From contig CANNEA010000001.1 of the NCBI GenBank assembly GCA_947503525.1, forward strand, positions 930,001 to 994,000: DNA of 64,000 nt, given 5' to 3'. Source of the DNA: an uncultured Carboxylicivirga sp. Its GTDB lineage: Bacteria > Bacteroidota > Bacteroidia > Bacteroidales > Marinilabiliaceae. Within the stretch, counting starts at the first letter, position 1. Every line of letters starts with the position of its first letter. The position numbers and the translations under genes are program-made. The notes below the pieces were generated by a model. That model saw only the letters and a list, made by a program, of their open reading frames with translations. It made no database searches and was not told the origin of the DNA. This document shows, piece by piece, positions 26,421 through 53,424 of this stretch.

Positions 26421-26462
26421 TAGAACTCACTTATTTAAACAATACCGTTAAAATAATACTTA

Positions 26463-26759: not shown

Positions 26760-26821
26760 CACATAGTAGTTTATGCATATTTTACCCTCCAATTATTGTA
26801 TAATCCAATTTAATAAATATC

Positions 26822-27466
26822 ATGAATAATTATATTTATAGAACAGCAGAATTAAAAGATATCAGTTTTCTAGTGGAAGCGATTATACAAGCTGAAAAAT
26901 CAGGAACAGACATATTAAGTTATACAACATTATTTGGGTTATCAGAGTCTAAAGCAAGAGTGTTGTTAGCCGATATGCTTGAGGAAGAAGTGGAAGATTG
27001 TGATTTGGCCTTGTCAGGGTTTATGATTGCTGAGTATGAGGGGTATCCTGTGGCTACTTTAAATGCTTGGTTAGAAGGAAAAGATGGTTTACCTTCAACT
27101 ACAATTAAAGGTAACTTATTAAGTTTCTATCTGCCTAAGGAGGCCATAGTGAAAGCGCAGAGTTTGAACGAATTATTTTCAGATTTATCAATAGAGCATA
27201 TTTCAGGAAGTTTATGTTTTGGACCAGCATATGTGGTTCCAGAACATGAAGGAGCTTTATTATTGGTTAAACTATGTCAGCTTCAAATTAGAAAACATTC
27301 GGATGCTTTGGAAGCTTATTGTCCAATATTTTCAAATAACTTGTCTTCAATTCAAAATTTTAAGTTGCAGAATTTCAAAGTTTTTAAAGAATATATTTCA
27401 CATAACGAAGAGATAAAAAATCTCTTACCGTCCAATAAAAAATTATTAATGTATAAAAAGCTATAG
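26822..27466 (+). CDS. GNAT-like acyltransferase, divergent
   Basis: 214-residue protein whose N-terminus YRTAELKDISFLVEAI and following MIAEYEGYPVATLNAWLEG look like the first helix and central strands of a GNAT fold. A clear acetyl-CoA loop (Q/RxxGxG/A) is not visible; the region VVPEHEGALLLVKLC occupies its place (cf. PxxxGxGL...). It lies between two carrier-protein genes. This positions it as a transferase using a carrier-bound acyl group, or as an accessory protein. Function is uncertain. Confidence 0.5.
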   Translation: MNNYIYRTAELKDISFLVEAIIQAEKSGTDILSYTTLFGLSESKARVLLADMLEEEVEDCDLALSGFMIAEYEGYPVATLNAWLEGKDGLPSTTIKGNLLSFYLPKEAIVKAQSLNELFSDLSIEHISGSLCFGPAYVVPEHEGALLLVKLCQLQIRKHSDALEAYCPIFSNNLSSIQNFKLQNFKVFKEYISHNEEIKNLLPSNKKLLMYKKL

Positions 27467-27472
27467 TGAGCT

Positions 27473-27712
27473 ATGGGAAAAGAGGAATTACAAAGTAAGT
27501 TAACGGCAATTTTTCAGAAAACATTTAACGATGAATCATTAGAGTTGTCAGATGAATTAACAGCGAACGATGTAGAAAACTGGGATTCATTGTCGCATAT
27601 GATTTTAATTGCTGAAGTTGAAAATAGTTTTTCGATAAAGTTTAAACTCAAAGATCTAAATAAGATGCGGAATGTTGGGGATATGTTAAATATTATTGAA
27701 TCGAAATTATAA
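27473..27712 (+). CDS. Acyl carrier protein, copy 2
   Basis: 79-residue protein of normal carrier length with the 4-helix pattern and site NWDSLSHMILIAEVE (Ser39 for phosphopantetheine). It is 6 bases after the GNAT-like gene and 18 bases before the MBOAT gene, the same order as carrier-membrane transferase pairs of Dlt-type systems. It probably delivers the activated acyl group to the MBOAT at the membrane. Having two carriers in one module suggests two acyl groups or a relay. Confidence 0.85.
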   Translation: MGKEELQSKLTAIFQKTFNDESLELSDELTANDVENWDSLSHMILIAEVENSFSIKFKLKDLNKMRNVGDMLNIIESKL

Positions 27713-27730
27713 AGTTATTGCAACCTTAGT

Positions 27731-29164
27731 ATGGTTTTTACTTCGCTGAATTTTTTAATTTTTTTACCGGTTGTTATGTTGTTATTTTACATAACTCCGG
27801 TAAAATATAGGTGGCTCACACTTCTCATCTCAAGTTATTTTTTTTACATTAATATTAAACCGATTTACGCTCTATTAAGTGGTGGTATAACTGTTTCAAC
27901 TTATGTATTTACACGTTTGATTGATAAAACTCCTGATGATAATAAAAAAAGGATTTTAATGATCTTAAATGTAATTATTATTCTTCTTCCTTTACTCTTC
28001 TTTAAGTACTTCGCAGTAATTAATAATGAATTAATATTACTACTGGATGATTGGCATTTAAGATGGCCGTTACCAGAAATGAGATATATACTTCCTATAG
28101 GAATATCATATTATACTTTTATGTGTATCGGGTATACAATAGATGTATACAATGAAGAAATAGAGGCGGAGAAAAACATTGGAATAGTAGCTCTCTTTGT
28201 TTCATTTTTCCCTTTAATCTTATCAGGACCTATAGAAAGAGCTAAGAACATGTTACCTCAGTTTAGAGATTTTCAAAGGATTAATTATGACGATCTTGTA
28301 AAAGGTATGCAGCTAATGCTTTGGGGCTTTTTCATGAAATTAGTGGTTGCTGATAGAATTGCTATGTATGTTGATGTAGTGTATGGCAATATAGAATCTT
28401 ATAGTGGTAATTCACTATTATTGGCAGCAATATTATACCCTTTTCAAGTTTATGCTGATCTTGGAGGATATTCTTTAATTGCTATAGGAGTGTCAAAGGT
28501 CCTTGGCATAAGAGTAATAGATAATTTTAAACGTCCGTTTTTTGCAACAACTATGGCAGAGTTTTGGAGAAGATGGCATATTTCACTAATAACATGGTTA
28601 ACAGACTATTTGTATACTCCACTTTCATTCTCTCTTCGGAAATGGGGTCTATGGGGTATTATATTGGCGTTAGAACTAACTTTTTTAATTAGTGGTATTT
28701 GGCATATGGCATCAATGACAATGGTAGTTTGGGGACTTTTGCAAGGTACTTTTTTGAGCATTGAAGCAGTGACTAGTAAAAGGCGGACTAAATTTGAAGG
28801 TAAGTATTCGTTATCAAATAAGAAATGGTACATGTTATTATCAATGATGTTTACCTTTATCCTTTTTGCTATCTCTCAAGTTGTTGGGCGGGTTGATACT
28901 GTTGGAGAGTCTTGGATGGTATTTAGAAAGATCTTTTCTGAATGGGGAAGTTTCTATCTTGATATGACAACATTATTTTATGCATTTATTGGAATTGTTA
29001 TTATTATTTTAAAAGATTTCATAGATGAATTTTTCCCTGAGCGAATTAATTTCTTCACCAATAAAAGAGTGTGGGTTAGGTATTCTTCATATTTAACAGT
29101 TGCATTTGTAATTATCTTATTTGGAGTTCTGGAAGGGAATAGTTTTATTTATTTTCATTTCTAA
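27731..29164 (+). CDS. MBOAT family O-acyltransferase (DltB/AlgI-like), copy 1
   Basis: 477-residue polytopic membrane protein of the MBOAT family. LNFLIFLPVVMLLFYITP is the usual first helix, FFPLILSGPIERAKNMLPQF is the re-entrant conserved block, ADLGGYSLIAIGVSKVLGI and FWRRWHISLITWLTDYLY follow, and the invariant catalytic histidine is H325 in SGIWHMAS. MBOAT proteins pass acyl groups across the membrane onto an extracytoplasmic hydroxyl. The gene is preceded by a carrier and followed 3 bases later by an SGNH protein with an N-terminal membrane anchor, paralleling dltB-dltD and algI-algJ/X arrangements. Confidence 0.9.
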   Translation: MVFTSLNFLIFLPVVMLLFYITPVKYRWLTLLISSYFFYINIKPIYALLSGGITVSTYVFTRLIDKTPDDNKKRILMILNVIIILLPLLFFKYFAVINNELILLLDDWHLRWPLPEMRYILPIGISYYTFMCIGYTIDVYNEEIEAEKNIGIVALFVSFFPLILSGPIERAKNMLPQFRDFQRINYDDLVKGMQLMLWGFFMKLVVADRIAMYVDVVYGNIESYSGNSLLLAAILYPFQVYADLGGYSLIAIGVSKVLGIRVIDNFKRPFFATTMAEFWRRWHISLITWLTDYLYTPLSFSLRKWGLWGIILALELTFLISGIWHMASMTMVVWGLLQGTFLSIEAVTSKRRTKFEGKYSLSNKKWYMLLSMMFTFILFAISQVVGRVDTVGESWMVFRKIFSEWGSFYLDMTTLFYAFIGIVIIILKDFIDEFFPERINFFTNKRVWVRYSSYLTVAFVIILFGVLEGNSFIYFHF

Positions 29165-29167
29165 ATT

Positions 29168-30052
29168 ATGACAGCTAAGGCATTTTTTATAAGAGGAGTT
29201 GTGCTTATATGCATTTTCTTCTTTGTTGATTTTATTATTTCTCTTTTTTTAGTTGAAGGTCTTAAAAAGTACTATGGCATTAATGATAGTCCAAATGTAT
29301 TAATTAACGGTTCATCAATGGCGATGAATGGTTTTAATAGAGATGCAATTTCAAAGAGGAGTGGTAAGAAGGTTGCTTCATATTCCCTTGAAGGTGTTGG
29401 ATTAGGTGAGAGATATGAAATGATTAGTCATTTTTATCAGACAAATAGTAATGTAGAGAAGGTGATATTTGAGGTAAGCCCAGTTATATTTGAGTCAAGT
29501 TCACTGTCTAAGAATATCTATACAATATTTTATCCATTCATGGATGCAAAAAACATGGATACATACATTTATAATCGTGCACCAATAAAAGATTATTTAG
29601 TACACAAGTTTATTCGTTGTTCTCGTTTTGATTCAAGGTTGATGAGGTTAATTATTATGGGATTTATGGGTAACTTTGATAATATGAAAACAAATGAGTT
29701 GAGTGGAGATGAAATTGCAGATGATAAGATAGGCTTTGTTTCAATACCATATGATGAAACAAAAAAAGATATTTTCGGCGAGACAATGAACTTAATTGAA
29801 GCCAACGGATCCGATGTTATATTAGTCATGATGCCAATGTACAAAGCAAAGTATTTATCCTTTAATCCAAATGAGTATACTCAATTATCTGATTATTTTC
29901 GGAATTTTTGTTTGAATAGAAAAGGGTTTACATTTATTGATTTAAACCGAAAGGAGCTCATAGAGAACACAAAAAATTTCTCAGATGAAGTGCATTTAAA
30001 TGTAAATGGACAAGACGAAGTCACAAAAATGATAATACCCTATCTTCAATAG
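29168..30052 (+). CDS. Membrane-anchored SGNH-like (DltD/AlgX-type) protein, copy 1
   Basis: 294 residues with one N-terminal membrane helix (about 8-30) and an extracytoplasmic domain. Block I reads LINGSSMAMNGF (G48-S49-S50) and the C-terminal block reads DEVHLNVNG (D273, H276), which fit the Ser and Asp-His positions of an SGNH hydrolase or acyltransferase. It follows its MBOAT partner by 3 bases. Such proteins receive or position the acyl group for final O-acylation of the polymer in the periplasm. Assignment as DltD-like is by architecture; residue identity is low. Confidence 0.7.
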   Translation: MTAKAFFIRGVVLICIFFFVDFIISLFLVEGLKKYYGINDSPNVLINGSSMAMNGFNRDAISKRSGKKVASYSLEGVGLGERYEMISHFYQTNSNVEKVIFEVSPVIFESSSLSKNIYTIFYPFMDAKNMDTYIYNRAPIKDYLVHKFIRCSRFDSRLMRLIIMGFMGNFDNMKTNELSGDEIADDKIGFVSIPYDETKKDIFGETMNLIEANGSDVILVMMPMYKAKYLSFNPNEYTQLSDYFRNFCLNRKGFTFIDLNRKELIENTKNFSDEVHLNVNGQDEVTKMIIPYLQ

Positions 30053-31946: not shown

Positions 31947-33380
31947 ATGGAAATCATTTCGGTAAGATTTGTACTTTTAGCCCTTGGTGCGGTATTTATC
32001 TTTTACTTTTTAAAGAACAAGTTTAAAACACTTTTTTTAGCAGTTTTAAGCTGTGCTTTTATTGCAACCTTTAATTACTTGTTATTAGCGTATGTTCTGG
32101 TGTATGCTCTAATTAATTATTACATTGGAATAAAGCTCTTTGAATCCAATCGTAAAACTGTGTACTATCGTATTGGATTGATATTTAATGTTCTTCAACT
32201 TGCGCTACTCAAATATGCGGATTTTCTTTTAGACCCGATAATCACATTAATTGATAGCAATATTGAAATAGCTAATTTGGCAAGACTTATTACACCGATT
32301 GGTATTTCATACTTTACCCTTCAAGGAATTGGTTATATTATTAATATTAAGTTAGGTGTTGAAAAGGTGGAACGTCGATTTGCTAATTTTTTGGTTTATA
32401 TCACCTTTTTCCCTAAATTTTTATCAGGTCCTGTTGAACGTTCAAATCATTTTCTTCCGCAGCTTGATAATTATAAGACCTTTGATAATAGTAGAATAAT
32501 TGAAGGTATTCGCATAGCTTTATTTGGATGTTTTAAAAAAGTGGCAATAGCTAATCAACTTGCTCCAATAATTATAGAAGCATATGGAAATGTCTCAGGA
32601 AGTGATGGGGCATTATTATTTACAGTAATATTTATCCAACCCCTTTACTTGTATTTTGATTTTTCTGGGTATACGGATATTGCAGTTGGTGTATCTAAAA
32701 TGTTTGGAATTAATATACTTCCGAATTTTAACCGTCCATTTTTTGCAGAGAATGTTACTTCATTTTGGCGTAAGTTTCATATGTCACTTTCGATTTGGTT
32801 TAGTGATTATGTGTTTAAACCTACGATGTTCAAACGAAGGAAATGGGGTAATTTGGCATCCATTTATGCCCTTTTATTAACCTGGAGTTTATTTGGTATA
32901 TGGCATGGTGCAGGCTGGAATTTTATGGTTCTTGGAATTATTCAGGCTGCTGCTGTCATTTATGAATTTTTCACCAAAAAGTGGAGAATGCAGTTTTTCT
33001 CTATACTTCCAAATCCACTTAGAGCATGGTTAGGTAGGTTGATAACATATTCATTTTATGGTGCATCCTTGGTGTTTTTCTTTGCTCCGGATTTGAAGGC
33101 TGCATTGACCTTTTTCTCTAGATTAAATATTTGGAATGGTTATTCATTTACTAGTAACCAAGAAACCGTATTCTTTGTAACTTTCCTTTTTGGATCAGCA
33201 TTTATGTTGGTGGAACTTTTCCAGAACGATTATCCAGATATTGCTGGTAGAATTGATAGTTGGTGGAGAGGAAAGAAGCAAGTTTATCGTGTTTTTAGGT
33301 GGTCGCTATATTTTTTCTTAATGTCAATCATCATTGTATTAAGTAATGAAGTTCAAAGTTTTATTTATTTTCAATTTTAA
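31947..33380 (+). CDS. MBOAT family O-acyltransferase (AlgI-like), copy 2
   Basis: Second 477-residue MBOAT membrane protein. Conserved parts are FFPKFLSGPVERSNHFLPQL, YFDFSGYTDIAVGVSKMFGI, FWRKFHMSLSIWFSDYVFKP and the invariant histidine H320 in LFGIWHGAGWNF. It is closer in motif spelling to AlgI-type alginate O-acetylases than copy 1 is. It shares one base (TAATG) with the following SGNH-like gene, so the pair is translationally coupled. It would acylate a second hydroxyl or use a different donor from copy 1. Confidence 0.9.
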   Translation: MEIISVRFVLLALGAVFIFYFLKNKFKTLFLAVLSCAFIATFNYLLLAYVLVYALINYYIGIKLFESNRKTVYYRIGLIFNVLQLALLKYADFLLDPIITLIDSNIEIANLARLITPIGISYFTLQGIGYIINIKLGVEKVERRFANFLVYITFFPKFLSGPVERSNHFLPQLDNYKTFDNSRIIEGIRIALFGCFKKVAIANQLAPIIIEAYGNVSGSDGALLFTVIFIQPLYLYFDFSGYTDIAVGVSKMFGINILPNFNRPFFAENVTSFWRKFHMSLSIWFSDYVFKPTMFKRRKWGNLASIYALLLTWSLFGIWHGAGWNFMVLGIIQAAAVIYEFFTKKWRMQFFSILPNPLRAWLGRLITYSFYGASLVFFFAPDLKAALTFFSRLNIWNGYSFTSNQETVFFVTFLFGSAFMLVELFQNDYPDIAGRIDSWWRGKKQVYRVFRWSLYFFLMSIIIVLSNEVQSFIYFQF

Positions 33381-34303
33381 TGGTAAAATTCGTTTTTAAG
33401 ATATTCTTATTTTTAATTGTCTTTTTTATTCTTGATAAACTTTTTCTTATTGTGACTCACTATTCTGCAGAGGCAGAAGTTGATAAAAGATTGGAATTAG
33501 TTGTAACAGGACAAATGGAAAAGGATATTATTATAGCTGGTTCATCACGAGGTAGTAGAGATATAATAGCAAAGCAATTAGAAGATAGTTTAGGTTTGTC
33601 TGCATATAATCTTTGTTTTCCTGGTTCTGATGTGAGGTTCCATGAGTTCTTAGCAAAATCATTATTGAATTTTAATAAGCCACCAAAATGTGTTCTGCTT
33701 GTCGTTGATGATGATCAGGAGCTTACAGATGATAGTGCAATTTTATTTCGCAAGGATAGATTATATCCCTTGGCTAAATATGAATATATATGGGAGGCCT
33801 TGGCAATAGAGGAAGGTAAAAACCCCTTTGTATCCAGGTTTCTTGTACTGGATAGACTAAATAAATATAATTTTGACTTGAGAAAAAAGAAGTTTACAGA
33901 GTTGGATTCAATATTGAATTGTGGCTCTATGCCTATTTCATGGTATCGTGATGACTGGGAATATGAATATTGCGTTGATAATGAATACAATATAGATGAT
34001 GAGGTTCCAAGTAAGGTAATTGCTTTCCTAAATATGATTAAATTAATTGAGTCATCGGGTAGTGAACTGGTGGTAGTTTTTCCACCAAATTTCAAATCTC
34101 ATAGTATTGATTTTGAAAATAGAATTAAAGAATTATCAGGAGATTCTGTTGACTTCTATGTTTATAATGTTTCGGATAGCGTGTACTTAAGAAAAGAAAG
34201 CTTTTTCGATGAGAGTCATCTAATGAAACATTCTGCAAAAATATTTACAAATGAAATAACGAATTATCTCAGAACTAAACATGATGAATTACTTGTCGAG
34301 TAA
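33380..34303 (+). CDS. Membrane-anchored SGNH-like protein, copy 2
   Basis: 307 residues with an N-terminal membrane helix (about 3-26) followed by an extracytoplasmic SGNH-like domain: IIAGSSRGSRD (G54-S55-S56) and DESHLMKHSAKIF (D277, H280). Partner of the MBOAT gene upstream, which it overlaps by one base. The two MBOAT/SGNH pairs in this stretch have the same order and spacing style. Its 3' end overlaps convergently by 15 bases with the lipoprotein gene on the opposite strand. Exact acyl-transfer role is inferred. Confidence 0.7.
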   Translation: MVKFVFKIFLFLIVFFILDKLFLIVTHYSAEAEVDKRLELVVTGQMEKDIIIAGSSRGSRDIIAKQLEDSLGLSAYNLCFPGSDVRFHEFLAKSLLNFNKPPKCVLLVVDDDQELTDDSAILFRKDRLYPLAKYEYIWEALAIEEGKNPFVSRFLVLDRLNKYNFDLRKKKFTELDSILNCGSMPISWYRDDWEYEYCVDNEYNIDDEVPSKVIAFLNMIKLIESSGSELVVVFPPNFKSHSIDFENRIKELSGDSVDFYVYNVSDSVYLRKESFFDESHLMKHSAKIFTNEITNYLRTKHDELLVE

Positions 34304-43644: not shown

Positions 43645-44445
43645 ATGAAAAACTACATCGTTTTGATTGCCAGTGTGTTATATGCACTTCTTTTGGCTTC
43701 GTGTGTTCCTTTAAAGAAATCTATCTATTTGCAAGGTGATATGGCAAAAAGTTTAGAAGAGATTGAGGCGACTTATGAGACAAAAAAGTCATCTTACCTA
43801 ATCAAACCTAATGATAATCTATATATAAGGGTTACGAGTTTGGATTCGCGAACATCTGCATTTTTAAATAATGATCAAGAAAATGCAAGTAATAGAATTG
43901 ATAATGCGATGGCAGCTAGCTTAGCCGGATATAGAGTTGATTTAGATGGTTCGATTAGTTATCCGTTTGTTGGAAAAATATATGTTGCAAATTTAACTTT
44001 ACCCGAGGTTACCAATAAAATACAATTAGCGGTAAGTAAGTTTATTGAGGAAAGTAGTGTTAATGTTAAATTATTAAACGATAATATAACTATTATTGGA
44101 GAGGTTCAGAGACCTGGTCGATTTTTGCTATATGCAGAGGAAGTGAATATTCTGGAAGCTATCAGTATGGCAGGAGACATGACTGATTATTCAAATCGTA
44201 AAAAAGTCAGGTTAATACGGCAAGATGGAGATACTCAACAGATGATTGTAATCAATACATTAGATGAGAATATTGTATTTTCTCCATATTATTATCTTAA
44301 ACCTGGTGATATAATATATGTTGAACCTAGAAGGTTAAAGTCATGGAGTTTGAGTTCAATTCCTATAGGTTTGACATTAACTTTTATTAATACAGCACTG
44401 CTATTATATACATTTTATAGTACACAATTTGATACGGGTAATTAA
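43645..44445 (+). CDS. wza: Wza-type polysaccharide export outer-membrane lipoprotein
   Basis: 266 residues with a lipoprotein signal peptide, LLASC with Cys20 lipidated. The poly-export domain begins SYLIKPNDNLYIRV, followed by a region GYRVDLDGSISYPFVGKIYVANLT and an SLBB-type segment NITIIGEVQRPGRFLLYAEEVNILEAISMAG. A C-terminal hydrophobic helix (SIPIGLTLTFINTALLLYTFY) is typical of the Bacteroidota version. It forms the outer-membrane channel for polymer export and is followed 14 bases later by its Wzc partner. Confidence 0.92.
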   Translation: MKNYIVLIASVLYALLLASCVPLKKSIYLQGDMAKSLEEIEATYETKKSSYLIKPNDNLYIRVTSLDSRTSAFLNNDQENASNRIDNAMAASLAGYRVDLDGSISYPFVGKIYVANLTLPEVTNKIQLAVSKFIEESSVNVKLLNDNITIIGEVQRPGRFLLYAEEVNILEAISMAGDMTDYSNRKKVRLIRQDGDTQQMIVINTLDENIVFSPYYYLKPGDIIYVEPRRLKSWSLSSIPIGLTLTFINTALLLYTFYSTQFDTGN

Positions 44446-44459
44446 ATAATTAGTTTGTA

Positions 44460-46802
44460 ATGGCAGAGCAAGTAAAAGTTGATCAAGAAAATATTTTTGA
44501 TTTAAAGAAAATAATTTTTAGAGCTTTAAGTTATTGGTATTGGATACCATTTTGTTTTTTAGTTTTTGCATCTCTTGGGATATATAAATATAGAATAACT
44601 ACACCTGTTCATAAAATTGGAACGCAATTATTAATTTCAGGTGGAGAAACTAATAGAGCCTCTATTGGTGGAGGTGAGAAGGATTTATTATCTGGAGTTA
44701 AATTAGGAGCACAAAATAACTTAGATAACCAATTAATCATTCTGACATCTTCCAACCAGATTGAAAAAACACTAAAGCAACTTGACTTTGCCGTTTCCTA
44801 TTATTTGTCTGGAATGCTTTTAACAACAGAAATTTATCAGGAATCTCCTTTTAAAGTGGTTGTTGATACTTCACAAACAAGCCTTAGTGCAAATCTATTT
44901 CATATTGAGTTTATAAATGACAAAGATTATACCTTAACGATTGAAGGGGATAAAGAGTTTAAGCGTAAAGGGACCTTTTTTGAGAAAATTGAGGAAGATG
45001 ATTATGTCTTTAGTATACTTCCTGTAGATGAATATGTAAAAGGAGGAGAATACATAGGGAATCACTATTCATTTCATTTTAATTCACTTTCTGGTTTGGT
45101 TGGTACTTACAAGTCTAAACTTAATATCGAGCAAGTACAGAGTTCTTCTATATATGAAATTTCAATAGTTGAGAATAACATCCAGAAAGGAATGGATTTC
45201 TTAAATAAATTAGCGTATAACTCGGTGGTTTATACATTGGAAAAGAAAAATTTAATCGCAAATAACAAGATACAGTTTATAGATAATCAGCTCATTGGAG
45301 TGACTGACTCTCTCGATAATGCGAAGAGTGTGTTAGAGAATTTCCGATCGAGAAATGAAGTGATGGATGTTAGTATGCAAGGGCAAATGATCATTCAGCA
45401 ATCTCAAGATTTGGAAGCTAGAAGATATAAAATTTCTGATCAACTTGATTATTATAATTACCTTTTGGATTACATACAAAATAATGAGGATATAAGTAAC
45501 CAGATATCTGCTCCATCATCTCAAAATGTAACTGACCCTACCTTATCAGCTCAGATTGCTGAACTTTCAAAGCTAAATGCGGAGAAAGCTAGTTTGCAAT
45601 TTAATTCAAGAATTGATAATCCTAATATAAAAAGTATTGATAGAAGAATTGAAACCATTAAGAATTCAATTATTGAAATTACTAAAAGCTTAATTAGTAC
45701 CACAAATAGTACATTGGAAGATCTTGATGAACGGATGATGAGTTTAAGTCATCAAATTAGACGACTTCCTCGAACTGAGCAAAAATTACTTGATATCCAG
45801 AGAAATTTTGAGATGAATGAACAACTTTATACTTACCTGCTTCAAAAGCGTTCAGATGCTCAATTGGCGAAAGCATCAAATTTGCCGGATAACGAAATTA
45901 TTGAATATGCTGTCTTTCAAGGACGTATTTCACCAAGTCCAATTAAGCTTGGATTCTTAATTGTTTTATTAGGCGTAGTATTGCCAGTTGGTGTAATTTT
46001 TTTGTTCGTATTCTTAAATAATAAGATTCAGGATCAAGATGATATTGAGCCATTAGGCTTGCCAGTAATTGGTTCTATTCCATTGCAGAGAAGAAGAGTA
46101 AAAGGATTAGAAGCAATATTATATCCAAGATCGGCCATTGCTGAGGCTTATAGGAGCGTGCGAACATCGCTTGGTTTTTATGTGGTTGATGGAGTAGAAA
46201 AGTGTAAAACTATTATGGTAACTTCATCTATTCCAGGGGAAGGTAAATCCTTTTGTGCAACTAATTTAGCAATCTCATTTGCTCAGCTGAATAAGAAGAC
46301 AATTATTCTTGGATTTGATATGCGCAAACCAACCCTACATGAATTATTAGATTTGAAAGTTAATAATAACGGATTAAGTAGGTTTCTTGTAAATGATCAC
46401 TTTCATGATAAAAGAAACCATTTAATTGAGCAAACATCCATAAAGAATCTGGATGTTATTCTAACCGGAGAAATACCTCCGAATCCTGTTGAATTAATTG
46501 CTGGTAATGCAACGGAAATATTGTTTACTGAATTAAAACAATTGTATGATGTCATCATAATAGATACCCCACCTTTAGGTTTAGTTACTGATGCGATCTT
46601 ATTATCAAAATTTTCAGATATTAATATAATTACCGTAAGACATAACTACACGCCTTTAAATACATTTTCCTATGTTATGCAGGATGATCGAGTTAAGCAG
46701 CTTAAGAATTTAAATGTTTGTATAAATGGTTTGCCTTTAACAAAGAAAGGGTATTCTTCGGGGTACAGTTATGGATTAAAGAGTAATTACTATGTAAATT
46801 AG
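44460..46802 (+). CDS. wzc: Wzc-type polysaccharide co-polymerase / bacterial tyrosine kinase
   Basis: 780 residues. Layout: first membrane helix near residue 22-42, Wzz periplasmic domain with long coiled-coil (about 260-480), second helix near 505-525, then a cytoplasmic BY-kinase domain with Walker A SSIPGEGKSF (Lys596), Walker A' LGFDMRKPTLHE and Walker B VIIIDTPPLGLVTDA. A C-terminal Tyr cluster (Y765, Y769, Y771, Y777, Y778) is the autophosphorylation site. It controls chain length and export together with Wza. No separate Wzb-like phosphatase gene lies beside it. Confidence 0.93.
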   Translation: MAEQVKVDQENIFDLKKIIFRALSYWYWIPFCFLVFASLGIYKYRITTPVHKIGTQLLISGGETNRASIGGGEKDLLSGVKLGAQNNLDNQLIILTSSNQIEKTLKQLDFAVSYYLSGMLLTTEIYQESPFKVVVDTSQTSLSANLFHIEFINDKDYTLTIEGDKEFKRKGTFFEKIEEDDYVFSILPVDEYVKGGEYIGNHYSFHFNSLSGLVGTYKSKLNIEQVQSSSIYEISIVENNIQKGMDFLNKLAYNSVVYTLEKKNLIANNKIQFIDNQLIGVTDSLDNAKSVLENFRSRNEVMDVSMQGQMIIQQSQDLEARRYKISDQLDYYNYLLDYIQNNEDISNQISAPSSQNVTDPTLSAQIAELSKLNAEKASLQFNSRIDNPNIKSIDRRIETIKNSIIEITKSLISTTNSTLEDLDERMMSLSHQIRRLPRTEQKLLDIQRNFEMNEQLYTYLLQKRSDAQLAKASNLPDNEIIEYAVFQGRISPSPIKLGFLIVLLGVVLPVGVIFLFVFLNNKIQDQDDIEPLGLPVIGSIPLQRRRVKGLEAILYPRSAIAEAYRSVRTSLGFYVVDGVEKCKTIMVTSSIPGEGKSFCATNLAISFAQLNKKTIILGFDMRKPTLHELLDLKVNNNGLSRFLVNDHFHDKRNHLIEQTSIKNLDVILTGEIPPNPVELIAGNATEILFTELKQLYDVIIIDTPPLGLVTDAILLSKFSDINIITVRHNYTPLNTFSYVMQDDRVKQLKNLNVCINGLPLTKKGYSSGYSYGLKSNYYVN

Positions 46803-46814: not shown

Positions 46815-47234
46815 TTATTCCGAAATTATATGGGCTCTTTCAAGTGTGTCTATTAATTCAATATTAAGATTGTTCTGAGCCAATATAAAAGCTATGTTTT
46901 GATTGTTAAATGCTTCTCCTGGTTGAGGGGGTGAAATCAATAAGCATTTCTCATTTTTCATAAATCCAAGAGTTTTATCCATGTCTTTCGAATAAAAACA
47001 AAGATGATGAAGTCCGCCTCCTTTCTTAGCAAACTTGTATATTGGGGAGGATTCATCTGATGGTTCTATTAGCTTTATTTCAATACTTTTCTCCTTTTTC
47101 ATAAAAACAACATTGACCTGCTGTACAGAATTATGTACGATCTCAGTTGATTGTACGTAACCAAATGTGTTTTTCCATTGTAGTATACTGTTAGCTAGTG
47201 ACTTTGTTACGATTCCAATATGATTAATAACCAT
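46815..47234 (-). CDS. VOC family protein, second copy
   Basis: 139-residue VOC protein with metal positions visible at NHIGIVTKS, IEIKLIEPS, GLHHLCFYSKD and NIELIDTLER (His-Glu-His-Glu), like the one at 26013 and like methylmalonyl-CoA epimerase. It is convergent with wzc (12-base gap) and divergent from a carrier-protein gene, with 311 bases between the starts. The repeated VOC plus carrier neighbourhood suggests that both VOC proteins act on carrier-bound acyl groups; this is inference. Confidence 0.75.
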   Translation of the reverse strand: MVINHIGIVTKSLANSILQWKNTFGYVQSTEIVHNSVQQVNVVFMKKEKSIEIKLIEPSDESSPIYKFAKKGGGLHHLCFYSKDMDKTLGFMKNEKCLLISPPQPGEAFNNQNIAFILAQNNLNIELIDTLERAHIISE

Positions 47235-47509
47235 TTTTATTGTTTAGGTTTTTGTGAATATAGCGATTATTGGGAAAGATTGCAATTTACTAATGGAGTT
47301 GCAATATTAATTTGGGAAACGTATTGGAATATTAAAAAAAAACGCTTTCTCTGTAAGGTAATTGGTTCTCTTACGTCACATGATTAAGTGACTTTTGTTT
47401 GGTTATAAATTAATCATGAAAAAACATCTAATCATCTATAAAAAATGATAGTCAGACAAACAAACTAATCATATTAAGTTAATCTTTAGTATTTTAAATT
47501 AAGAGATAA
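47235..47509. other. Divergent intergenic region upstream of the carrier gene
   Basis: AT-rich sequence between the VOC and carrier-protein genes with no coding ORF. A short inverted repeat GTCAC-(8)-GTGAC lies near 47376-47393 and could be an operator, but no regulator gene is adjacent. Confidence 0.4.
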
Positions 47510-47517
47510 TAACTTTG
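47510..47517 (+). promoter_or_regulatory. Possible -7 element of the carrier/asnB module
   Basis: TAACTTTG matches TAnnTTTG; a weak TTTAG lies about 20 bases upstream. Transcription would begin near 47524, which rules out the in-frame TTG at 47520 as a start and favours ATG 47535 or 47547. Confidence 0.45.
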
Positions 47518-47546
47518 TTTTGATTGAATATTTAATGAGAAGGGAA

Positions 47547-47789
47547 ATGAAAGAAAAGATTAGGAATTTTATAGCAGAAACAACTTTTGTTGATTCAAGT
47601 ACGATTAAAGATGAAACTCTGATTTTTGATGAGGGTATATTTGATTCAATGGGCCTTTTGGGCTTAATTAATTTTTTAGAGTCGGAGTTTGGGGTGGTAA
47701 CTGATGATACCGAATTACAAGAAGAAAATTTTGGTAGTGTTGAGCGAATTGCGGCTTTTATTGATCGCAAAGTTGCAGTGGCCAGTTAA
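47547..47789 (+). CDS. Acyl carrier protein, copy 3
   Basis: 80-residue carrier protein, MKEKIRNFIAET to FIDRKVAVAS, with the phosphopantetheine site GIFDSMGLLGLINFLE (Ser34). Start is placed at ATG 47547, which is preceded by AGAAGGGAA, an unusually good ribosome binding site for this genome; ATG 47535 would add four residues. It precedes asnB, the NadE-like gene and the AMP ligase, separated from them by a hairpin. It probably carries the acid activated by the ligase at 50879. Confidence 0.82.
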   Translation: MKEKIRNFIAETTFVDSSTIKDETLIFDEGIFDSMGLLGLINFLESEFGVVTDDTELQEENFGSVERIAAFIDRKVAVAS

Positions 47790-47823
47790 TTATACTTAAG
47801 GGGATAAGTGTATAGCGTAATAG

Positions 47824-47866
47824 AAAGAACTATGATGATTATGTATAATTATAGTTCTTTTTTTTC
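47824..47866 (+). terminator. Intrinsic terminator or attenuator between carrier gene and asnB
   Basis: A perfect 10-base inverted repeat (47824-47833 AAAGAACTAT, 47851-47860 ATAGTTCTTT) with a 17-base loop is followed by a further T-run. It may partly uncouple the highly needed small carrier from the four enzymes downstream, for which no separate promoter is obvious. Confidence 0.7.
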
Positions 47867-47887
47867 TTTATAACCAGACAAGAGCCT

Positions 47888-49858
47888 ATGTGCGGAATTA
47901 CCGGTTTTGCTAATGCAGCAAGACTTATTAAGCATGATAATAAAGAACATCTGTTAAATCGTATGCTTAATCGAATTATTCATAGAGGACCGGATGAGAT
48001 GGGTTTATATCTTTCTGATTCCTGTTGCATGGGTAATGTTAGATTAAGCATTGTTGATTTGAAAGGGGGCCAACAACCGCTTTCGAATGATGATGGTACT
48101 CTTTGGATTGCATATAATGGCGAAGTCTATAATCATCTTGAATTACGCAATAGGCTCATTCAATTAGGACATTCATTTAAAACACATTGTGATACTGAAG
48201 TTGTTCTTCATATGTATGAAGAATATGGAGAGAATTGTTTGCAATACCTCAATGGTCAGTTTGCTTTTTCTATATGGAATGAAGAAAACCAGACTCTGTT
48301 TATGGCTCGAGATAGGGTAGGGATAAGGCCTTTATATTATACTCAGATAAAAGATTCAATTGTCTATGGATCTGAAATTAAGTCTATTTTTGAGTTTCCG
48401 GAAGTTGAACGTAAGATCGATGTAAAATCCTTGCAACAGGTGTTTACATTCTGGACTTGTCTTTCACCATCAACAATTTTTGAAAATATTTTAGAAGTTC
48501 CACCGGGACACTATCTTACTTTTTGTAATGGTACAGCAAAAGTCCAGGCTTATTGGGAAGATAAGAAGGTCTTAAATAATCCGTTTAAGGGAAATTTGGA
48601 GGAAGCTGTTGAGGAATTCAGAAGCTTATTTCATGATTCTGTCAATCTTAGATTACGAGCTGATGTTCAGGTAGCAGCATACCTTAGTGGTGGGCTTGAC
48701 TCAAGTATTACTACTTCATTTGTTAAAACTATTCAGCCGGAAGTACTAAATACTTTTTCCATTGGTTTTCAGGATAAAGACTTTGATGAATCCATTTACC
48801 AGAATGAGGTATCGGATTATTTTCAAACCAATCACAATTCCGTGGCATGTACTGATGCTGATATACCGGATTTGTTAGAACAGGCAATTTGGCATTCAGA
48901 GACTCCATTAATGCGGACCTCACCAGTGCCAATGATGAAGTTGTCAAAATTGGTTAGAGATAATGGTATTAAGGTAGTACTAACCGGAGAAGGTGCTGAT
49001 GAGTATCTGGGAGGATATAATATTTTTAAGGAAGCCATGGTACGACAATTCTGGGCGAAAGAACCGGATTCCAAACTTAGACCATTGCTGTTAAAGAAAC
49101 TATATCCTTATATTCCCCAATTGAAGAATGCTTCACCGGCTATGCTACGGATGTTTTTTGGATACAAATTAAATGAAACTGATTCGCCGGTTTATTCACA
49201 TTTGTTGAGGTGGCGAAATGGGCAGAATGTAGGTTTACATTTTTCTGATGATATAAAAAGTCGCATAAATGCTTATGATCCTATAGGTGATTATGTTGAC
49301 ACAATTAAAGATAAGCTTTGTGGCTATAGTACTTTGGAAAAGGCACAATATATAGAATCTAAGGTTTTTATGTCGGGATATCTTCTGTCATCGCAAGGAG
49401 ATCGAATGGGAATGGCCAATTCTATTGAGGGAAGATATCCATTTTTGGATCATCGCCTAATAGAGTTTTGTGCATCTTTACCTGATGAGTTTAAGCTTAA
49501 TGGCATGAATGAAAAGTATTTGCTTAAGCAAATGATGAAAGGTAAATTGCCCGATGTGGTTGTTAATCGACCTAAGCAAGCTTATAGAGCGCCTGTGGCT
49601 AATGCTATTTTGAAATATGGCCAAGTCTTATTGGATAAGTATCTCAACTCGGAAGCTTTGGTTGAAAGCGCATTGTTTAATCCAAAGAGTGTTGGGCAGT
49701 TGCTTAAAAAACTCAAATCTTCCAAATTTATTTCGGAGTATGATAATATGGCTTTTATAGGTCTTCTGACAACACAAATATTACATAGGCAATATATATC
49801 TGATTTCACCCCTCTTAGGGATAATGAAGTGATAAAGGGAGTTGTAAGAAATAAATAA
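47888..49858 (+). CDS. asnB: Asparagine synthase (glutamine-hydrolysing) family amidotransferase, copy 2
   Basis: 656 residues with nucleophile Cys2 (MCGITGF), HRGPDEMG, AYNGEVYN and the ATP-pyrophosphatase loop SGGLDSS at 267-273, then GEGADEYLGGY. It is only distantly similar to copy 1 at 14444. Similar AsnB-type amidotransferases sit beside AMP ligases and carrier proteins in exopolysaccharide loci of exosortase-carrying bacteria. Here it is followed by an NadE-like enzyme and an AMP ligase. An amidation of a locus-specific carboxylate, or supply of ammonia to the neighbour, is inferred. Confidence 0.9.
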   Translation: MCGITGFANAARLIKHDNKEHLLNRMLNRIIHRGPDEMGLYLSDSCCMGNVRLSIVDLKGGQQPLSNDDGTLWIAYNGEVYNHLELRNRLIQLGHSFKTHCDTEVVLHMYEEYGENCLQYLNGQFAFSIWNEENQTLFMARDRVGIRPLYYTQIKDSIVYGSEIKSIFEFPEVERKIDVKSLQQVFTFWTCLSPSTIFENILEVPPGHYLTFCNGTAKVQAYWEDKKVLNNPFKGNLEEAVEEFRSLFHDSVNLRLRADVQVAAYLSGGLDSSITTSFVKTIQPEVLNTFSIGFQDKDFDESIYQNEVSDYFQTNHNSVACTDADIPDLLEQAIWHSETPLMRTSPVPMMKLSKLVRDNGIKVVLTGEGADEYLGGYNIFKEAMVRQFWAKEPDSKLRPLLLKKLYPYIPQLKNASPAMLRMFFGYKLNETDSPVYSHLLRWRNGQNVGLHFSDDIKSRINAYDPIGDYVDTIKDKLCGYSTLEKAQYIESKVFMSGYLLSSQGDRMGMANSIEGRYPFLDHRLIEFCASLPDEFKLNGMNEKYLLKQMMKGKLPDVVVNRPKQAYRAPVANAILKYGQVLLDKYLNSEALVESALFNPKSVGQLLKKLKSSKFISEYDNMAFIGLLTTQILHRQYISDFTPLRDNEVIKGVVRNK

Positions 49859-49886
49859 ACTAAAATAAAAATCTAAACCATAAACA

Positions 49887-50870
49887 ATGAAGGAAATATT
49901 TTCAAGAGATATTATAAAACTTAAAGATATCGAAGGTACCATTAATGGTATCTGTATCAAATTAAAGTCTGATGTCAATCAGGTGTTAAGACGAAAAGGT
50001 GGAGTTATCGGAGTAAGCGGTGGAATTGATTCTTCCGTTACATTAGCTATTGCAGTACGTGCTTTTGGGGCAGAAAATCTTCTGGGTATAATGTTGCCGG
50101 AAAAGGATTCAAGTCCTGATAGTAAAGATTTTGCTGAGTTGCTGACTAAGAAATTTGGAGTTAAGGTAATTGAAGAAAATATAGGTGGAGCTTTAGAAGG
50201 TTTTCAATGTTATCAACGAAGAGATGAGGCTGTATCTCGGGTTATACCCGAGTTCAATCCTGCTACTGATAAAATGAAGATCGTAATACCGGAAGAGTTG
50301 ATCAGGAAGAACTTACCACCGGTATTTTACGTGACTGTAATATTTCAAGATGGCTCTGAAAAGAGTGTTCGACTGCCAATGAATGAGTATTTGCAGATTG
50401 TAGCATCATCAAACTTTAAACAGCGCTGCCGAATGTCCATGTTGTATTATCATGCCGAGGCATTGCATTATGCAGTGCTGGGAACACCTAATAAACATGA
50501 GGTTGAACAAGGGTTTTTCGTAAAGTATGGAGATGGAGGTGCAGATGTTATGCCAATTGGGAATCTATATAAAACTCAGGTTTATGAAATTGCTCGTCAT
50601 TTAGGTGTGCCGGATGAAATAATTGAGAGAACACCAACGACTGATACATATTCTGCGGAACAAACTCAGGAAGAGTTCTTCTATCAAATGCCTTTTGAAG
50701 ATATGGACCTTTTATGGTATGGATGGGAAAATGGATATACTCCTGAGGAAGTAGCTCCGGTTATGAATTTATCTACGGAAGCGGTTTTAAAGATCTTTAA
50801 GAATTTTGGCAGGAAAAAGAAGACTACCGATTATTTACGAAGAGCTCCAATTCACGATTATCCTTGTTAA
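49887..50870 (+). CDS. NadE-like ammonia-dependent amide synthase homologue
   Basis: 327 residues of the NAD synthetase (adenylating) fold. The PP-loop SGGIDSS is at 44-50, SNFKQRCRMSMLYYHAEAL and GTPNKHEVEQGFFVKYGDGGADVMPIGNLYKTQVYEIARHLGVP match the NadE active-site segments, and RTPTTDTY corresponds to the C-terminal substrate loop. It lacks the nitrilase glutaminase domain and carries an insertion of about 50 residues (about 105-160) not usual in NH3-dependent NadE of 240-280 residues. Its place between asnB and an AMP ligase argues for a dedicated amidation role and not housekeeping NAD synthesis; that is inference. Confidence 0.75.
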   Translation: MKEIFSRDIIKLKDIEGTINGICIKLKSDVNQVLRRKGGVIGVSGGIDSSVTLAIAVRAFGAENLLGIMLPEKDSSPDSKDFAELLTKKFGVKVIEENIGGALEGFQCYQRRDEAVSRVIPEFNPATDKMKIVIPEELIRKNLPPVFYVTVIFQDGSEKSVRLPMNEYLQIVASSNFKQRCRMSMLYYHAEALHYAVLGTPNKHEVEQGFFVKYGDGGADVMPIGNLYKTQVYEIARHLGVPDEIIERTPTTDTYSAEQTQEEFFYQMPFEDMDLLWYGWENGYTPEEVAPVMNLSTEAVLKIFKNFGRKKKTTDYLRRAPIHDYPC

Positions 50871-50878
50871 ATAATAAT

Positions 50879-52339
50879 ATGAATTGTGTAGATTTTTTAT
50901 TTCAGGATCAATTAGAGCGATCTGCTGATTTTATTCTTGGTAGATCCGAAACACTAAGTTACAAAGAGCTCAATGATCGAGTTTCAAAGGTGGCTTACTG
51001 GTTGGGGCAACATATTGGGACAAATAAAAATATTTTATTATTGGCTCCCAATAGTAGTTTTTTTATAGTTAGCTATTTGGCAATTATGAAATCAGGTAAT
51101 GTTGTGGTGCCATTAAATCCGGGAATTGAATTTACACAGTTTGATTATGTAAGGTCGCATTGTGAATGTGAACATGTTTTTATAGTTAAGCAGGTCAAAA
51201 AAAGATTAAAACTAACGGGAGACGAGTATATAGATGAAGATGCCTATGCATCTGTAATTGAATCTTCAAATAGTATTGAATGGAATGAAGTTGAATTTAA
51301 TTCAAATTGTTTGGCTCAGATCATTTATACTTCAGGTTCTACTTCTTTGCCAAAAGGAGTTATGCTTTCGCATAAAAATATCATTGCCAATACAAATTCT
51401 ATTATCAAGTATTTAGAACTGACGGATAATGATGTTATGGAGGTTGTATTGCCATTTTTTTATTGTTATGGCTTATCTCTTTTGCATACACATCTTAAAG
51501 TTGGTGCTTCGATAGTTTTAAATAATACATTTATATTTCTTGGATCTGTTCTATCGGATTTTGAGAAATATAAATGTACCGGATTTGCAGGTGTTCCCAG
51601 TCATTTTCAAATATTGCTTCGCAAATCGGATTCTTTCAAAAATGGTGAATTTCCTCATTTAAGATATGTTACTCAAGCAGGAGGAAAGTTGCATACCGCC
51701 TTTATTAATGAGTTCAGAGAGTCAAAGCCTGATGTCAAATTTTTTGTAATGTATGGTCAGACTGAAGCGACAGCCCGTCTTTCCTATTTATCTCCGGACT
51801 TACTCAATGATAAGCTTGGTTCATTGGGTAAAGGTATACCGGATGTGGAATTAAAGGTTGTAGATGATCAGGGTAATAAAGTAAAGCCTAGAGTCGTAGG
51901 GGAGATAATTGCCAAAGGACAAAATGTGATGTTGGGCTATTATAAGGATGAGCAAGAAACGAACGAGGCTCTGAAGGATGGATGGCTTTACACCGGTGAC
52001 TTAGCGAAAGTGGATGAAGAGGGTTTTATCTATCATGCTGCGAGGCGTAAAGAAATTATTAAAGTTGGCGGTAAACGAGTAAGTCCTAAAGAAATTGAAG
52101 AAGTTATCGTTAGTATTCCAGGAGTAATTGACTGCACAATTGAGGCCGTTGAAGATGCATTGCTTGGAGAGGCGATTAAAGCCATTATTGTGCCCAATAA
52201 AGAGCATGATGAAATTACAGAAAAATACATAAAAGAGTATTGTTCCATAAGATTGGAAATGTTTAAAGTGCCAGGTCTTATTGAATTTAAGGCTAATGTA
52301 GATGTTAACGCTGCAGGAAAAAAAGTAAAGAAGATATAG
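50879..52339 (+). CDS. AMP-dependent acyl ligase (ANL superfamily)
   Basis: 486 residues. IIYTSGSTSLPKGVMLSH is the A3 P-loop, MYGQTEATARLS the A5 motif, GWLYTGDLAKVDEEGFIYHAARRKEIIKVGGKRVSPKEIEEVI spans A7-A8, and NAAGKKVKKI ends with the adenylation lysine region. It resembles acyl-CoA/aryl ligases and the AMP ligases of exosortase-type EPS loci. The start is set at ATG 50879, after the stop of the NadE-like gene; an upstream TTG at 50864 would overlap that gene by 7 bases. It probably loads the carrier at 47547. Confidence 0.85.
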   Translation: MNCVDFLFQDQLERSADFILGRSETLSYKELNDRVSKVAYWLGQHIGTNKNILLLAPNSSFFIVSYLAIMKSGNVVVPLNPGIEFTQFDYVRSHCECEHVFIVKQVKKRLKLTGDEYIDEDAYASVIESSNSIEWNEVEFNSNCLAQIIYTSGSTSLPKGVMLSHKNIIANTNSIIKYLELTDNDVMEVVLPFFYCYGLSLLHTHLKVGASIVLNNTFIFLGSVLSDFEKYKCTGFAGVPSHFQILLRKSDSFKNGEFPHLRYVTQAGGKLHTAFINEFRESKPDVKFFVMYGQTEATARLSYLSPDLLNDKLGSLGKGIPDVELKVVDDQGNKVKPRVVGEIIAKGQNVMLGYYKDEQETNEALKDGWLYTGDLAKVDEEGFIYHAARRKEIIKVGGKRVSPKEIEEVIVSIPGVIDCTIEAVEDALLGEAIKAIIVPNKEHDEITEKYIKEYCSIRLEMFKVPGLIEFKANVDVNAAGKKVKKI

Positions 52340-52422
52340 CTGTTTGGTGGACGTATTGTGTTGAATAATCAAATATACTTATCTTTCCAACCGTAAAATC
52401 AGTAATATTAGAAAGATATTAT

Positions 52423-53424
52423 GTGTCTATGGTTGTTAAGCTAAAAACAGATGAGTACCAATATAATTCAGAAGTAAGGTATGTTAATGGCATGTCTCCA
52501 AATGTTGGTGCTTTGATTGAAGCTGGAGGGGAGATCTATAAATTTGCCAGTGAAAATGTTTCACTCAATCATGAGGGCTTAAAGCTTGTTTCAAATTTAT
52601 GGGATGTTGATTTCGATAAGAATAAAAAGTTAAATGTCATTATTGATTTATCGCCTGTTAATTTGAGTGAAGGCCAGGCGCGCTTGCATATGGTCAATAC
52701 TTTGCTTGAAGATGGAGGAATATATATAGGATGCTCGAATTTGCAGGTCAGAGAATCACTTATCAATTATGCCTTACTTAAAAATAACTACAATTTTATT
52801 TCAAAAGCTGAGATTCTTGGGCGTTTGGTTAATGCCGGCTTCTCAATAGTGGATTATCGTGTAATTGAAGGGAAATTATTCTTTTGTGTGATTAATACCG
52901 ATAAACCGATGTTGGAACCCAAAAAAGCTGATAATTGGGTTATTCCTATGACAAGAATCGGTAGATCAGGTAAAGAACTTCAAATATTTAAATTTCGAAC
53001 AATGTATCCGTATTCCGAATATCTGCAGGATTATGTAGTTGGACTGAACGGATATAATGAGAAGGGCAAACCTCAGAATGATTTTCGACTTACAAGAGTG
53101 GGGAGATTGATACGTAAATTTTGGATTGATGAATTACCTCAGGTTTTTAATTTATTAAAAGGTGAATTGGCACTTGTTGGGGTTAGACCATTAAGTAAAT
53201 CTCGTTTTAATGAATTACCTGAAGATGTGAGGAAAGAAAGAATCAAATATAAGCCAGGCTGTATCCCTCCATACGTTGCTCTGCGTATGCCTGATAGTGT
53301 TGGAAATATTCAGGCGGAGCGAATTTATTTTGAAGCAAAATCAAAATACTATTATTGGACAGATGTAAAGTATTTCTTTTTAGCTGTTTACAATGTTCTC
53401 ACCGGACGAATTACCAGTTCGTAG
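52423..53424 (+). CDS. Phosphoglycosyl transferase domain fused to an N-terminal domain, lacking the membrane hairpin
   Basis: 333 residues. The C-terminal half (about 170-330) is a bacterial sugar transferase domain: KFRTM at 190-194, FRLTRVGRLIRKFWIDELPQVFNLLKGELALVGVRP with the catalytic Asp-Glu dyad D236-E237. The re-entrant hydrophobic hairpin that normally precedes KFRTM is absent; instead WVIPMTRIGRSGKELQIFKF follows directly on an N-terminal domain of about 165 residues. That domain looks like the tail of a SAM-dependent methyltransferase fold (LLEDGGIYIGCSNL, AEILGRLVNAGFSIVDYRVIEGKLFFCVI). The start has an alternative two codons downstream. Membrane association and donor are unknown. 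Confidence 0.75.
   Translation: MSMVVKLKTDEYQYNSEVRYVNGMSPNVGALIEAGGEIYKFASENVSLNHEGLKLVSNLWDVDFDKNKKLNVIIDLSPVNLSEGQARLHMVNTLLEDGGIYIGCSNLQVRESLINYALLKNNYNFISKAEILGRLVNAGFSIVDYRVIEGKLFFCVINTDKPMLEPKKADNWVIPMTRIGRSGKELQIFKFRTMYPYSEYLQDYVVGLNGYNEKGKPQNDFRLTRVGRLIRKFWIDELPQVFNLLKGELALVGVRPLSKSRFNELPEDVRKERIKYKPGCIPPYVALRMPDSVGNIQAERIYFEAKSKYYYWTDVKYFFLAVYNVLTGRITSS

Follow-up and report, generated by a model that had tools for sequence, protein, structure and literature searches.

We analyzed a 64,000-nucleotide stretch of DNA (hereafter, the window), positions 930001–994000 of contig 1 of a 6.56-Mb genome, and found that four adjacent genes in it, encoding a carrier protein, an AsnB-like amidotransferase, a NadE-like ligase and an adenosine monophosphate (AMP)-forming ligase, make up a unit that recurs in other genomes. 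We tentatively propose that their product is an amidated acyl group, bound to the carrier and used to decorate surface sugars, a reading to which we give slightly less than an even chance. The closest named relatives of the window's NadE-like protein come from Marinilabiliaceae and Carboxylicivirga (86 to 87 percent identity), and the source was therefore assigned to Bacteroidota. A first-pass annotation had described a module of six genes, directly after wza and wzc, and open reading frames and Pfam/NCBIfam matches place all six as it had read them:

wza, 43645–44445, forward strand, surface-polysaccharide locus context, directly upstream of the six genes
wzc, 44460–46802, forward strand, same context, directly upstream of the six genes
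VOC protein resembling methylmalonyl-CoA epimerase, 46815–47234, reverse strand, accessory, an occasional neighbour
carrier protein (4'-phosphopantetheine carrier), 47520–47789, forward strand, PP-binding match of 29.6 bits
AsnB-like glutamine-dependent amidotransferase, 47888–49858, forward strand, Asn_synthase match of 301 bits plus a glutaminase domain, both active sites intact
NadE-like PP-loop ligase, 49887–50870, forward strand, match of 420 bits (cut-off 313) to NF002048/PRK00876 'NAD(+) synthase'
AMP-forming acid:carrier ligase, 50864–52339, forward strand, AMP-binding match of 241 bits
phosphoglycosyl transferase (PGT) fused to the C-terminal half of a methyltransferase-like domain, 52423–53424, forward strand, accessory, Bac_transf match of 89 bits

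The listed start of the carrier, at 47520, is a TTG, and the true start is probably one of the ATGs at 47535 and 47547. The AMP ligase is likewise listed from a TTG; its relatives start near the ATG at 50879, which is its likely start.

We examined the recurrence of these genes in two samples. The selected sample consisted of 80 named loci, the best 80 of 123 confirmed relatives of the NadE-like gene, picked by closeness to the window. The unselected sample was obtained by searching 395 Bacteroidota genomes with NF002048, which gave 13 above the cut-off, the window's own genome included; up to 20 kb was read around the gene in each of the other 12, one of which (L143) is a 4.7-kb contig. All four genes occurred together in 10 of these 12 unselected genomes and at least three of them in all 12, a grouping that exceeds chance. 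AsnB is split into three frames at L135, is absent locally at L134 (genome G243), where a 40-percent relative lies on another contig, and the ligase is absent locally at L136 (genome G132), where a 38-percent relative lies about 35 kb away.

The selected loci gave a similar picture, with a ligase frame in all 80, an intact NadE frame in 78 (all except L044 and L088) and AsnB in 76, directly upstream of NadE in 66 loci, while the ligase was directly downstream of NadE in 70. Three of the four clusters without AsnB (L032, L069 and L097) have a NadE frame that opens 313 to 321 bases into the stretch; the fourth, L083, has 3.9 kb of contig beyond NadE. A carrier was found by profile in 68 of the 78 loci having NadE. 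Of the ten others, eight are on contigs that extend 2.1 kb or less upstream of NadE, L083 encodes, as judged by eye, a carrier of another kind, and L038 seems truly to have none. ComEC-like, TrkA and RecG genes, which adjoin many copies, were set aside as housekeeping genes. The recurrent unit is thus smaller than the module first described: carrier, AsnB, NadE-like enzyme and AMP ligase recur, in the unselected genomes and in Alphaproteobacteria too, and the VOC protein and the PGT fusion are accessory genes outside this core.

Across Bacteroidota and Alphaproteobacteria, the four genes were observed in at least six orders:

carrier-AsnB-NadE-ligase, in the window and most other loci
NadE-AsnB-carrier-ligase, in L132 and L140, and in L133 with the ligase inverted
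AsnB-NadE-carrier-ligase, in L141, L142 and L143
carrier-AsnB-ligase-NadE, in L137
AsnB-carrier-ligase-NadE, in Sinorhizobium, Shinella, Mesorhizobium and Rhizobium
carrier-ligase-AsnB-NadE, in Azospirillum

Additional orders were found in a type of locus that has MBOAT and PrmC-like genes. Because the set is kept while its order varies, a joint function is the best explanation. In a tree of NadE sequences the module proteins clustered in a single clade with support 0.878, separate from the 13 housekeeping NadEs. Within it, the proteins from Alphaproteobacteria grouped with those of the Bacteroidota loci L132, L133, L134 and L140, a sign of transfer between phyla. The NadE-like protein was also present in 116 plasmid records, 76 of them from Sinorhizobium. 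On these sequence comparisons, the putative four-gene pathway is mobile and cross-phylum. Tree distances were correlated at r = 0.88 for NadE and AsnB, 0.68 for NadE and the ligase and 0.62 for AsnB and the ligase (n = 26), values that none of 2000 permutations reached and that still contain shared organism history. A tree of AsnBs placed the module proteins in a single clade against three others, but this clade had a support of only 0.234 and was not used as evidence. Among the search controls, an NF002048 match turned up in Methanosarcina acetivorans.

The Asp-Ser of the carrier attachment site is invariant in all 63 aligned module carriers. The loop after the TE motif lines the acid pocket in adenylating enzymes, and in this loop an arginine, Arg305, is present in 84 of 84 aligned module ligases, the loop being one residue shorter in 13 of them. 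A conserved arginine at this place suggests that the acid carries a second negative group. The suggestion is a weak one, since the nearest solved ligases include feruloyl and fatty-acid ligases as well as oxalate and malonate CoA ligases. The module ligases fall into two branches, one in most Bacteroidota loci and the other in rhizobia and most loci of the PrmC-containing type. One of the rhizobial loci, L102 on pSymB of Sinorhizobium meliloti, is presumably the SMb20651 operon, judging by its place on pSymB and by the carrier-ligase pair described for that species. According to a study of S. meliloti, smb20650 and smb20651 are co-transcribed, and co-expression with the ligase yielded acylated carrier in E. 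coli (PMC7232532). Loading of the carrier by the AMP ligase is well supported. At L101, inspection by eye showed another carrier-like protein, together with what is probably a phosphopantetheinyl transferase, behind the module at 18204–20025.

AsnB appears to be a complete enzyme. The glutaminase Cys2 and the synthetase residues S267, G268, G269, D271, S272, E338, R343, G367, E368, G369, D371, E372, K543, R561 and K563 are invariant in all 73 aligned module AsnBs. With its synthetase site intact throughout, AsnB very likely forms its own acyl-adenylate and so activates a carboxylate itself. The first-pass annotation had suggested that the AsnB glutaminase may supply ammonia for an amide that the NadE-like enzyme forms on a carrier-bound or sugar carboxylate. 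Amide and carrier chemistry remain the theme, but with a synthetase site and a Cys2 that never vary, AsnB is unlikely to be only a supplier of ammonia. The closest solved relative of AsnB, 7ylz, is annotated as a hydroxyamidotransferase, and we take it to be the trichostatin enzyme acting on a polyketide acid. Asparagine supply was set aside as the role of the module AsnB because the window's genome has AsnA and two further AsnB relatives.

The NadE-like protein carries no glutaminase. NadEs are the closest PDB structures to its AlphaFold model (predicted local distance difference test score, 84.5), with template modelling scores of 0.82 for 2e18 and 0.84 for 1xng (by target length). The PP-loop ATP site is kept, with S44, G45, G46, D48, S49, K229 and others in common with housekeeping NadEs, and several substrate-loop residues of NadE are retained as well. 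Relative to NH3-dependent NadE, there is an insert of about 55 residues (roughly 107–165), partly modelled as strands and a helix at 129–162. Ten positions are nearly fixed in the module proteins (95 percent of 34 rows, one gene being included twice, as L118 and L139), and at these positions 10 to 13 of the 13 housekeeping NadEs differ. V212, F210 and G217 stand where housekeeping enzymes have T (13/13), Y (12/13) and M (10/13), and T254, T260 and F264 where they have L (12/13), D (12/13) and L (11/13); C108, Y109, K131 and K310 fall in columns that are mostly gaps in the housekeeping enzymes. Taken as a whole, the residues around the substrate loops are not those usual in true NadEs.

As the first-pass annotation had proposed to check, we searched for a housekeeping NadE, and one is present besides the module copy in 13 of 13 module genomes. 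In the window's genome it lies inside a 552-aa frame on contig 13 (G000:C13:38364-39098), and in G109 the separate NadE is a weaker match of 102 bits in a 647-aa frame. Of the outcomes that the first-pass annotation had named as refuting its idea, neither a sole NadE nor a failure of the genes to occur together elsewhere was observed. By these comparisons the NadE-like enzyme has a NadE fold with NadE-type chemistry and very likely acts on another acid. They also suggest that, in the loci studied here if not more widely, the function of NF002048 (PRK00876) is not that of the NAD(+) synthase after which it is named.

Partners of the module are often ACYLTRANSFERASES: proteins of the unrelated folds GNAT, left-handed beta-helix and MBOAT stand beside many copies. 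In 33 of the 80 selected loci, a beta-helix protein or an MBOAT is no more than three genes away. In profile searches of these loci, a 200-aa beta-helix family had 14 members near the module and 1 far from it (p = 0.00045), in a test that, like the other near-versus-far tests here, counts related loci as independent. The profile searches replaced a regular expression for beta-helix repeats that had missed known beta-helix proteins; its matches, in only 5 of 80 loci, did not set nearby genes apart from distant ones (p = 0.34). An acyltransferase or GNAT-like neighbour was present in 8 of the 12 unselected loci: at L132 and L133 a 360-aa protein with no Pfam match and 21 to 27 percent identity to the rhizobial GNAT-like protein (E 5e-45 to 3e-30), at L135 to L138 beta-helix proteins (the one at L136 not scanned against Pfam), and at L141 and L142 GNATs, L142 having an MBOAT as well. 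The rhizobial protein, of 360 to 370 aa, stands next to the set, except in S. meliloti, where it lies 10 kb away beside GumC, O-antigen ligase and glycosyltransferase genes. In Azospirillum the neighbour is a different protein and passes a GNAT cut-off.

Some neighbours hint at the acceptor and at the product. At L138 the genes run FdtA-FdtA-carrier-AsnB-NadE-ligase-beta-helix-wza-wzc, the second FdtA being assigned by eye. Since FdtA enzymes take part in 3-amino-sugar synthesis, a natural guess is that an amino sugar becomes N-acylated. At L135 a phosphopantetheinyl transferase and the beta-helix protein stand directly before the carrier. A PrmC-like methyltransferase is found near the core in 9 of the 80 selected loci (11 near, 1 far, p = 0.003), with the motif NPPY in 9 of 10 members of the cluster and APPY in the tenth. 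An NPPY protein of this kind also adjoins the GNAT-like gene in Mesorhizobium and S. meliloti, at 37 to 43 percent identity to those of L032, L095 and L101. NPPY is the motif of amino-methyltransferases and PrmC methylates a glutamine amide nitrogen, so a PrmC-like neighbour fits an amide product. Separately, nucleotide-sugar genes (epimerase, DegT aminotransferase, and nucleotidylyltransferase or RmlD-like reductase; by eye) were seen near the module at L141 and L142.

Putting these observations together, we propose the following route. The AMP ligase would load the carrier with a carboxylic acid, probably one with a second acidic group, and AsnB, using glutamine, would convert a free carboxylate of that acid to a primary amide, much as in the malonamyl-acyl carrier protein (malonamyl-ACP) proposal discussed below. 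The NadE-like enzyme would use ammonia for a second ATP-dependent addition of nitrogen, either to this acyl unit or to a precursor of it. A lineage-specific acyltransferase (a GNAT, a left-handed beta-helix protein, or an MBOAT with an SGNH protein) would then transfer the acyl group onto an amino sugar or a polymer, and in the PrmC-like type the amide nitrogen would be methylated. We infer the acid, the amidation steps, the acyl transfer, the acceptor and the order of the steps.

Several observations weigh against this route. The tree correlations in part reflect shared organism history. Exchange of the ligase has been freer than that of AsnB and NadE, which means that the acid may vary or that the NadE-like enzyme may not act on the ligase's acid. 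Enrichment was not significant for a second beta-helix family (14 near, 8 far; p = 0.2) or for MBOATs (10 near, 4 far; p = 0.11), and neither a beta-helix protein nor an MBOAT lies within three genes in 47 of the 80 selected loci, GNATs not being counted there. No acyltransferase adjoins the core in the window itself, and none was seen at L134, L139 and L140, the contig of L143 being too short to tell. GNAT models either fail to match the rhizobial GNAT-like protein or do so at 17.7 and 17.0 bits, where the cut-off is 25. Only 40 of the 80 selected loci have polysaccharide-type genes no more than three genes away, a figure with no background rate beside it. In the unselected sample, matches to Wza, Wzc or PGT occur at this distance in 3 of the 12 loci (L136–L138) and anywhere in the stretch in 5 (plus L139 and, weakly, L140).

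The set might instead make a diffusible small molecule or a modified lipid, such as a fatty or diacid amide, the polysaccharide neighbours then being coincidental, which we regard as unlikely, though a real contender. It would accommodate the 40 of 80 loci and the several rhizobia with no polysaccharide genes within three genes, and the hydroxyamidotransferase 7ylz being the closest solved relative of AsnB. It would leave unexplained the 40 loci that do have such genes and the GNAT-like and PrmC-like partners of S. meliloti at a polysaccharide locus 10 kb off; moreover, no chain-building enzyme, oxidase or transporter was found among the recurrent neighbour clusters that were annotated (part of the clusters), and SMb20650 does not replace FadD (PMC7232532). 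A quite improbable variant puts both nitrogen additions at one carbon, AsnB making an amide and the NadE-like enzyme turning it into an amidine, which PrmC-like enzymes then methylate. It accounts for two different PP-loop enzymes staying together and for an NPPY methyltransferase joining in one type. GuaA, a related PP-loop enzyme, does comparable amidine chemistry on a lactam, and N-methylated acetimidoyl groups occur in bacterial surface sugars. However, the substrate of NadE is a carboxylate, and the NadE-like enzyme retains the catalytic residues of NadE. A broader version seems to us just as improbable: the set would supply donors in general, in several phyla and to whichever acyltransferase is at hand, with the AsnB amide followed by a NadE-like amidine on one carrier-bound acyl group, the amidine being N-methylated in the PrmC-like type.

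Two further explanations concern the PP-loop enzymes themselves. That AsnB is the ammonia source and the NadE-like enzyme makes the only amide would suit a NadE-like protein without a glutaminase and would suit the AsnB-NadE pair, the most tightly co-inherited of the three tested; the intact synthetase site in every aligned AsnB speaks against it, as do the channelling of ammonia by AsnB enzymes to their own site and the case of G243, whose nearest AsnB is on another contig. We judge it slightly less probable still than the amidine variant, and AsnB could give ammonia to the NadE-like enzyme on the side in any event. Very improbable, in our view, is that the NadE-like protein is a second NAD synthetase or nucleotide enzyme with unrelated neighbours, as the NCBI label of NF002048 and the many catalytic residues matching NadE might suggest. 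Its identity as a NAD synthetase was set aside on the separate NadE in all 13 genomes and the ten consistent residue differences, to which are added the 55-residue insert and the fact that carrier, ligase and AsnB always accompany it, in six or more gene orders.

The carrier-bound amidated acyl group that we favour would reveal an amide-bearing substituent of bacterial surface polymers, would account for an operon without an assigned product in the model symbiont S. meliloti, and would assign a function to a whole NCBI subfamily, NF002048. If the amidine variant were true, cell-surface sugars would have a substituent of a new class, and the NadE fold an activity not seen in it before. The correction of the annotation is useful on its own, as genomes may be credited with NAD synthesis through a gene that very likely does something else.

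The two accessory genes of the window were compared in the same samples. The VOC protein scores 61 bits against the methylmalonyl-CoA epimerase model (cut-off 115). A VOC relative lies within three genes in 4 of the 80 selected loci (four near versus one far, p = 0.22, not significant); it is inside the gene run at L051 and L065 and, among the unselected loci, directly behind NadE at L136. As a partner it is only occasional, and it would suit an acyl thioester whose alpha carbon is acidic. In the PGT fusion there is a PglC-like catalytic domain (best fold match 8g1n), with an Asp-Glu dyad, D236 and E237, invariant in 21 of 21 aligned sequences, and a match to the C-terminal half of methyltransferases. 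The Bac_transf profile matched only from position 39 of 179, and the N-terminal re-entrant membrane helix was not found, the best 19-residue hydropathy being 1.18 versus 3.28 in a small PGT of the same window. The close relatives at L022–L024 likewise have no strongly hydrophobic segment, in an enzyme class that is otherwise membrane-bound. Members of the PGT-fusion cluster are found in 22 of the 80 selected loci, in 17 of them two genes behind NadE. A search of 148 genomes, the window's own included, gave matches in 37; 12 other genomes match strongly from about residue 115 onward, into the fused domain, and the remaining 24 matches are weaker and mostly limited to the PGT domain. With this type also present elsewhere in the phylum and its cluster in only 22 of 80 loci, the PGT fusion was rejected as a core part; it is a scattered Bacteroidota type, not module-specific.

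A surface-polysaccharide locus occupies much of 1–34303 in the window, with wza and wzc following later at 43645–46802; downstream of the PGT fusion are a propeller-type sensor-regulator and a SusC/SusD-like pair (the pair judged by eye). Within the polysaccharide locus, a second carrier cassette runs from 23883 to 30052, beginning with a weak GNAT and continuing as follows:

AMP ligase, 24495–25982
VOC protein, 26013–26420
carrier, weak matches in frames 26457–26756 and 27470–27709
MBOAT, 27731–29164
DltD-like protein, 29168–30052

The pairing of an AMP ligase with a VOC protein thus has two occurrences within one window. Behind this cassette, 31947–34303 holds a second MBOAT-like protein and then another SGNH-like protein (by eye), the latter with no Pfam match. 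Another AsnB at 14444–16372 overlaps a RimK-type ATP-grasp protein at 16347–17366, and both may form amides too, in this same locus. An amino-sugar route is represented by a pair of neighbouring FdtA-type proteins and a DegT-type aminotransferase, at 4–848 and 2691–3809, and a GINT1_N domain, named after glucosamine inositolphosphorylceramide transferase 1, lies inside this bacterial polysaccharide locus at 6462–7460.

The first-pass annotation had found no obvious described pathway for these genes. No function for the four-gene set was found in a search of open-licence papers, but the gene set itself is presumably not new, being that of the SMb20651 operon of S. meliloti pSymB, reportedly treated by Ramos-Vega et al. 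in 2009 (cited in PMC9386255). The pSymB locus L102 has the same four families, at 42 (asnB), 37 (carrier), 34 (ligase) and 45 (nadE) percent identity to the window, and its NadE scores 532 bits against NF002048. It differs in its order, asnB-carrier-ligase-nadE, in having no adjoining wza-wzc, in its GNAT-like and PrmC-like partners 10 kb away, and in its ligase, which is XrtA-like, whereas that of the window belongs to another branch.

XrtA/PEP-CTERM exopolysaccharide loci contain an AsnB (TIGR03108) and an AMP ligase (TIGR03098) of related families. The window AsnB scores 450.6 bits against a cut-off of 816.9 and the ligase 311.4 against 592.35, both far below. No match to the exosortase family PF09721 was found in 11 of the 13 module genomes, and the match in the window's genome is on another contig. 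The exosortase system was set aside on these scores and on the presence of PF09721 in only 2 of 13 genomes; the match on another contig leaves room for a distant exosortase link in the window's one genome.

For the malonamyl-ACP starter trio of glutarimide antibiotics (SmdFGH, ChxBCD, GdsBCD), it has been proposed that an AsnB homologue amidates the acyl thioester on the carrier and in this way makes malonamyl-ACP (PMC7756379). The trio loads its carrier by a malonyl acyltransferase, in the place of which the window module has an AMP ligase; no NadE-like enzyme is named among the three, and their product feeds a polyketide synthase. Dlt-type acylation (ligase, carrier, MBOAT, DltD) shares with the module the ligase and carrier, and some module loci also have an MBOAT, related to DltB but below the cut-off, and an SGNH-like protein. 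An MBOAT is part of the Dlt type, whereas it lies within three genes in only 5 of the 80 module loci and not next to the window core, and unlike Dlt the module core has AsnB and the NadE-like enzyme.

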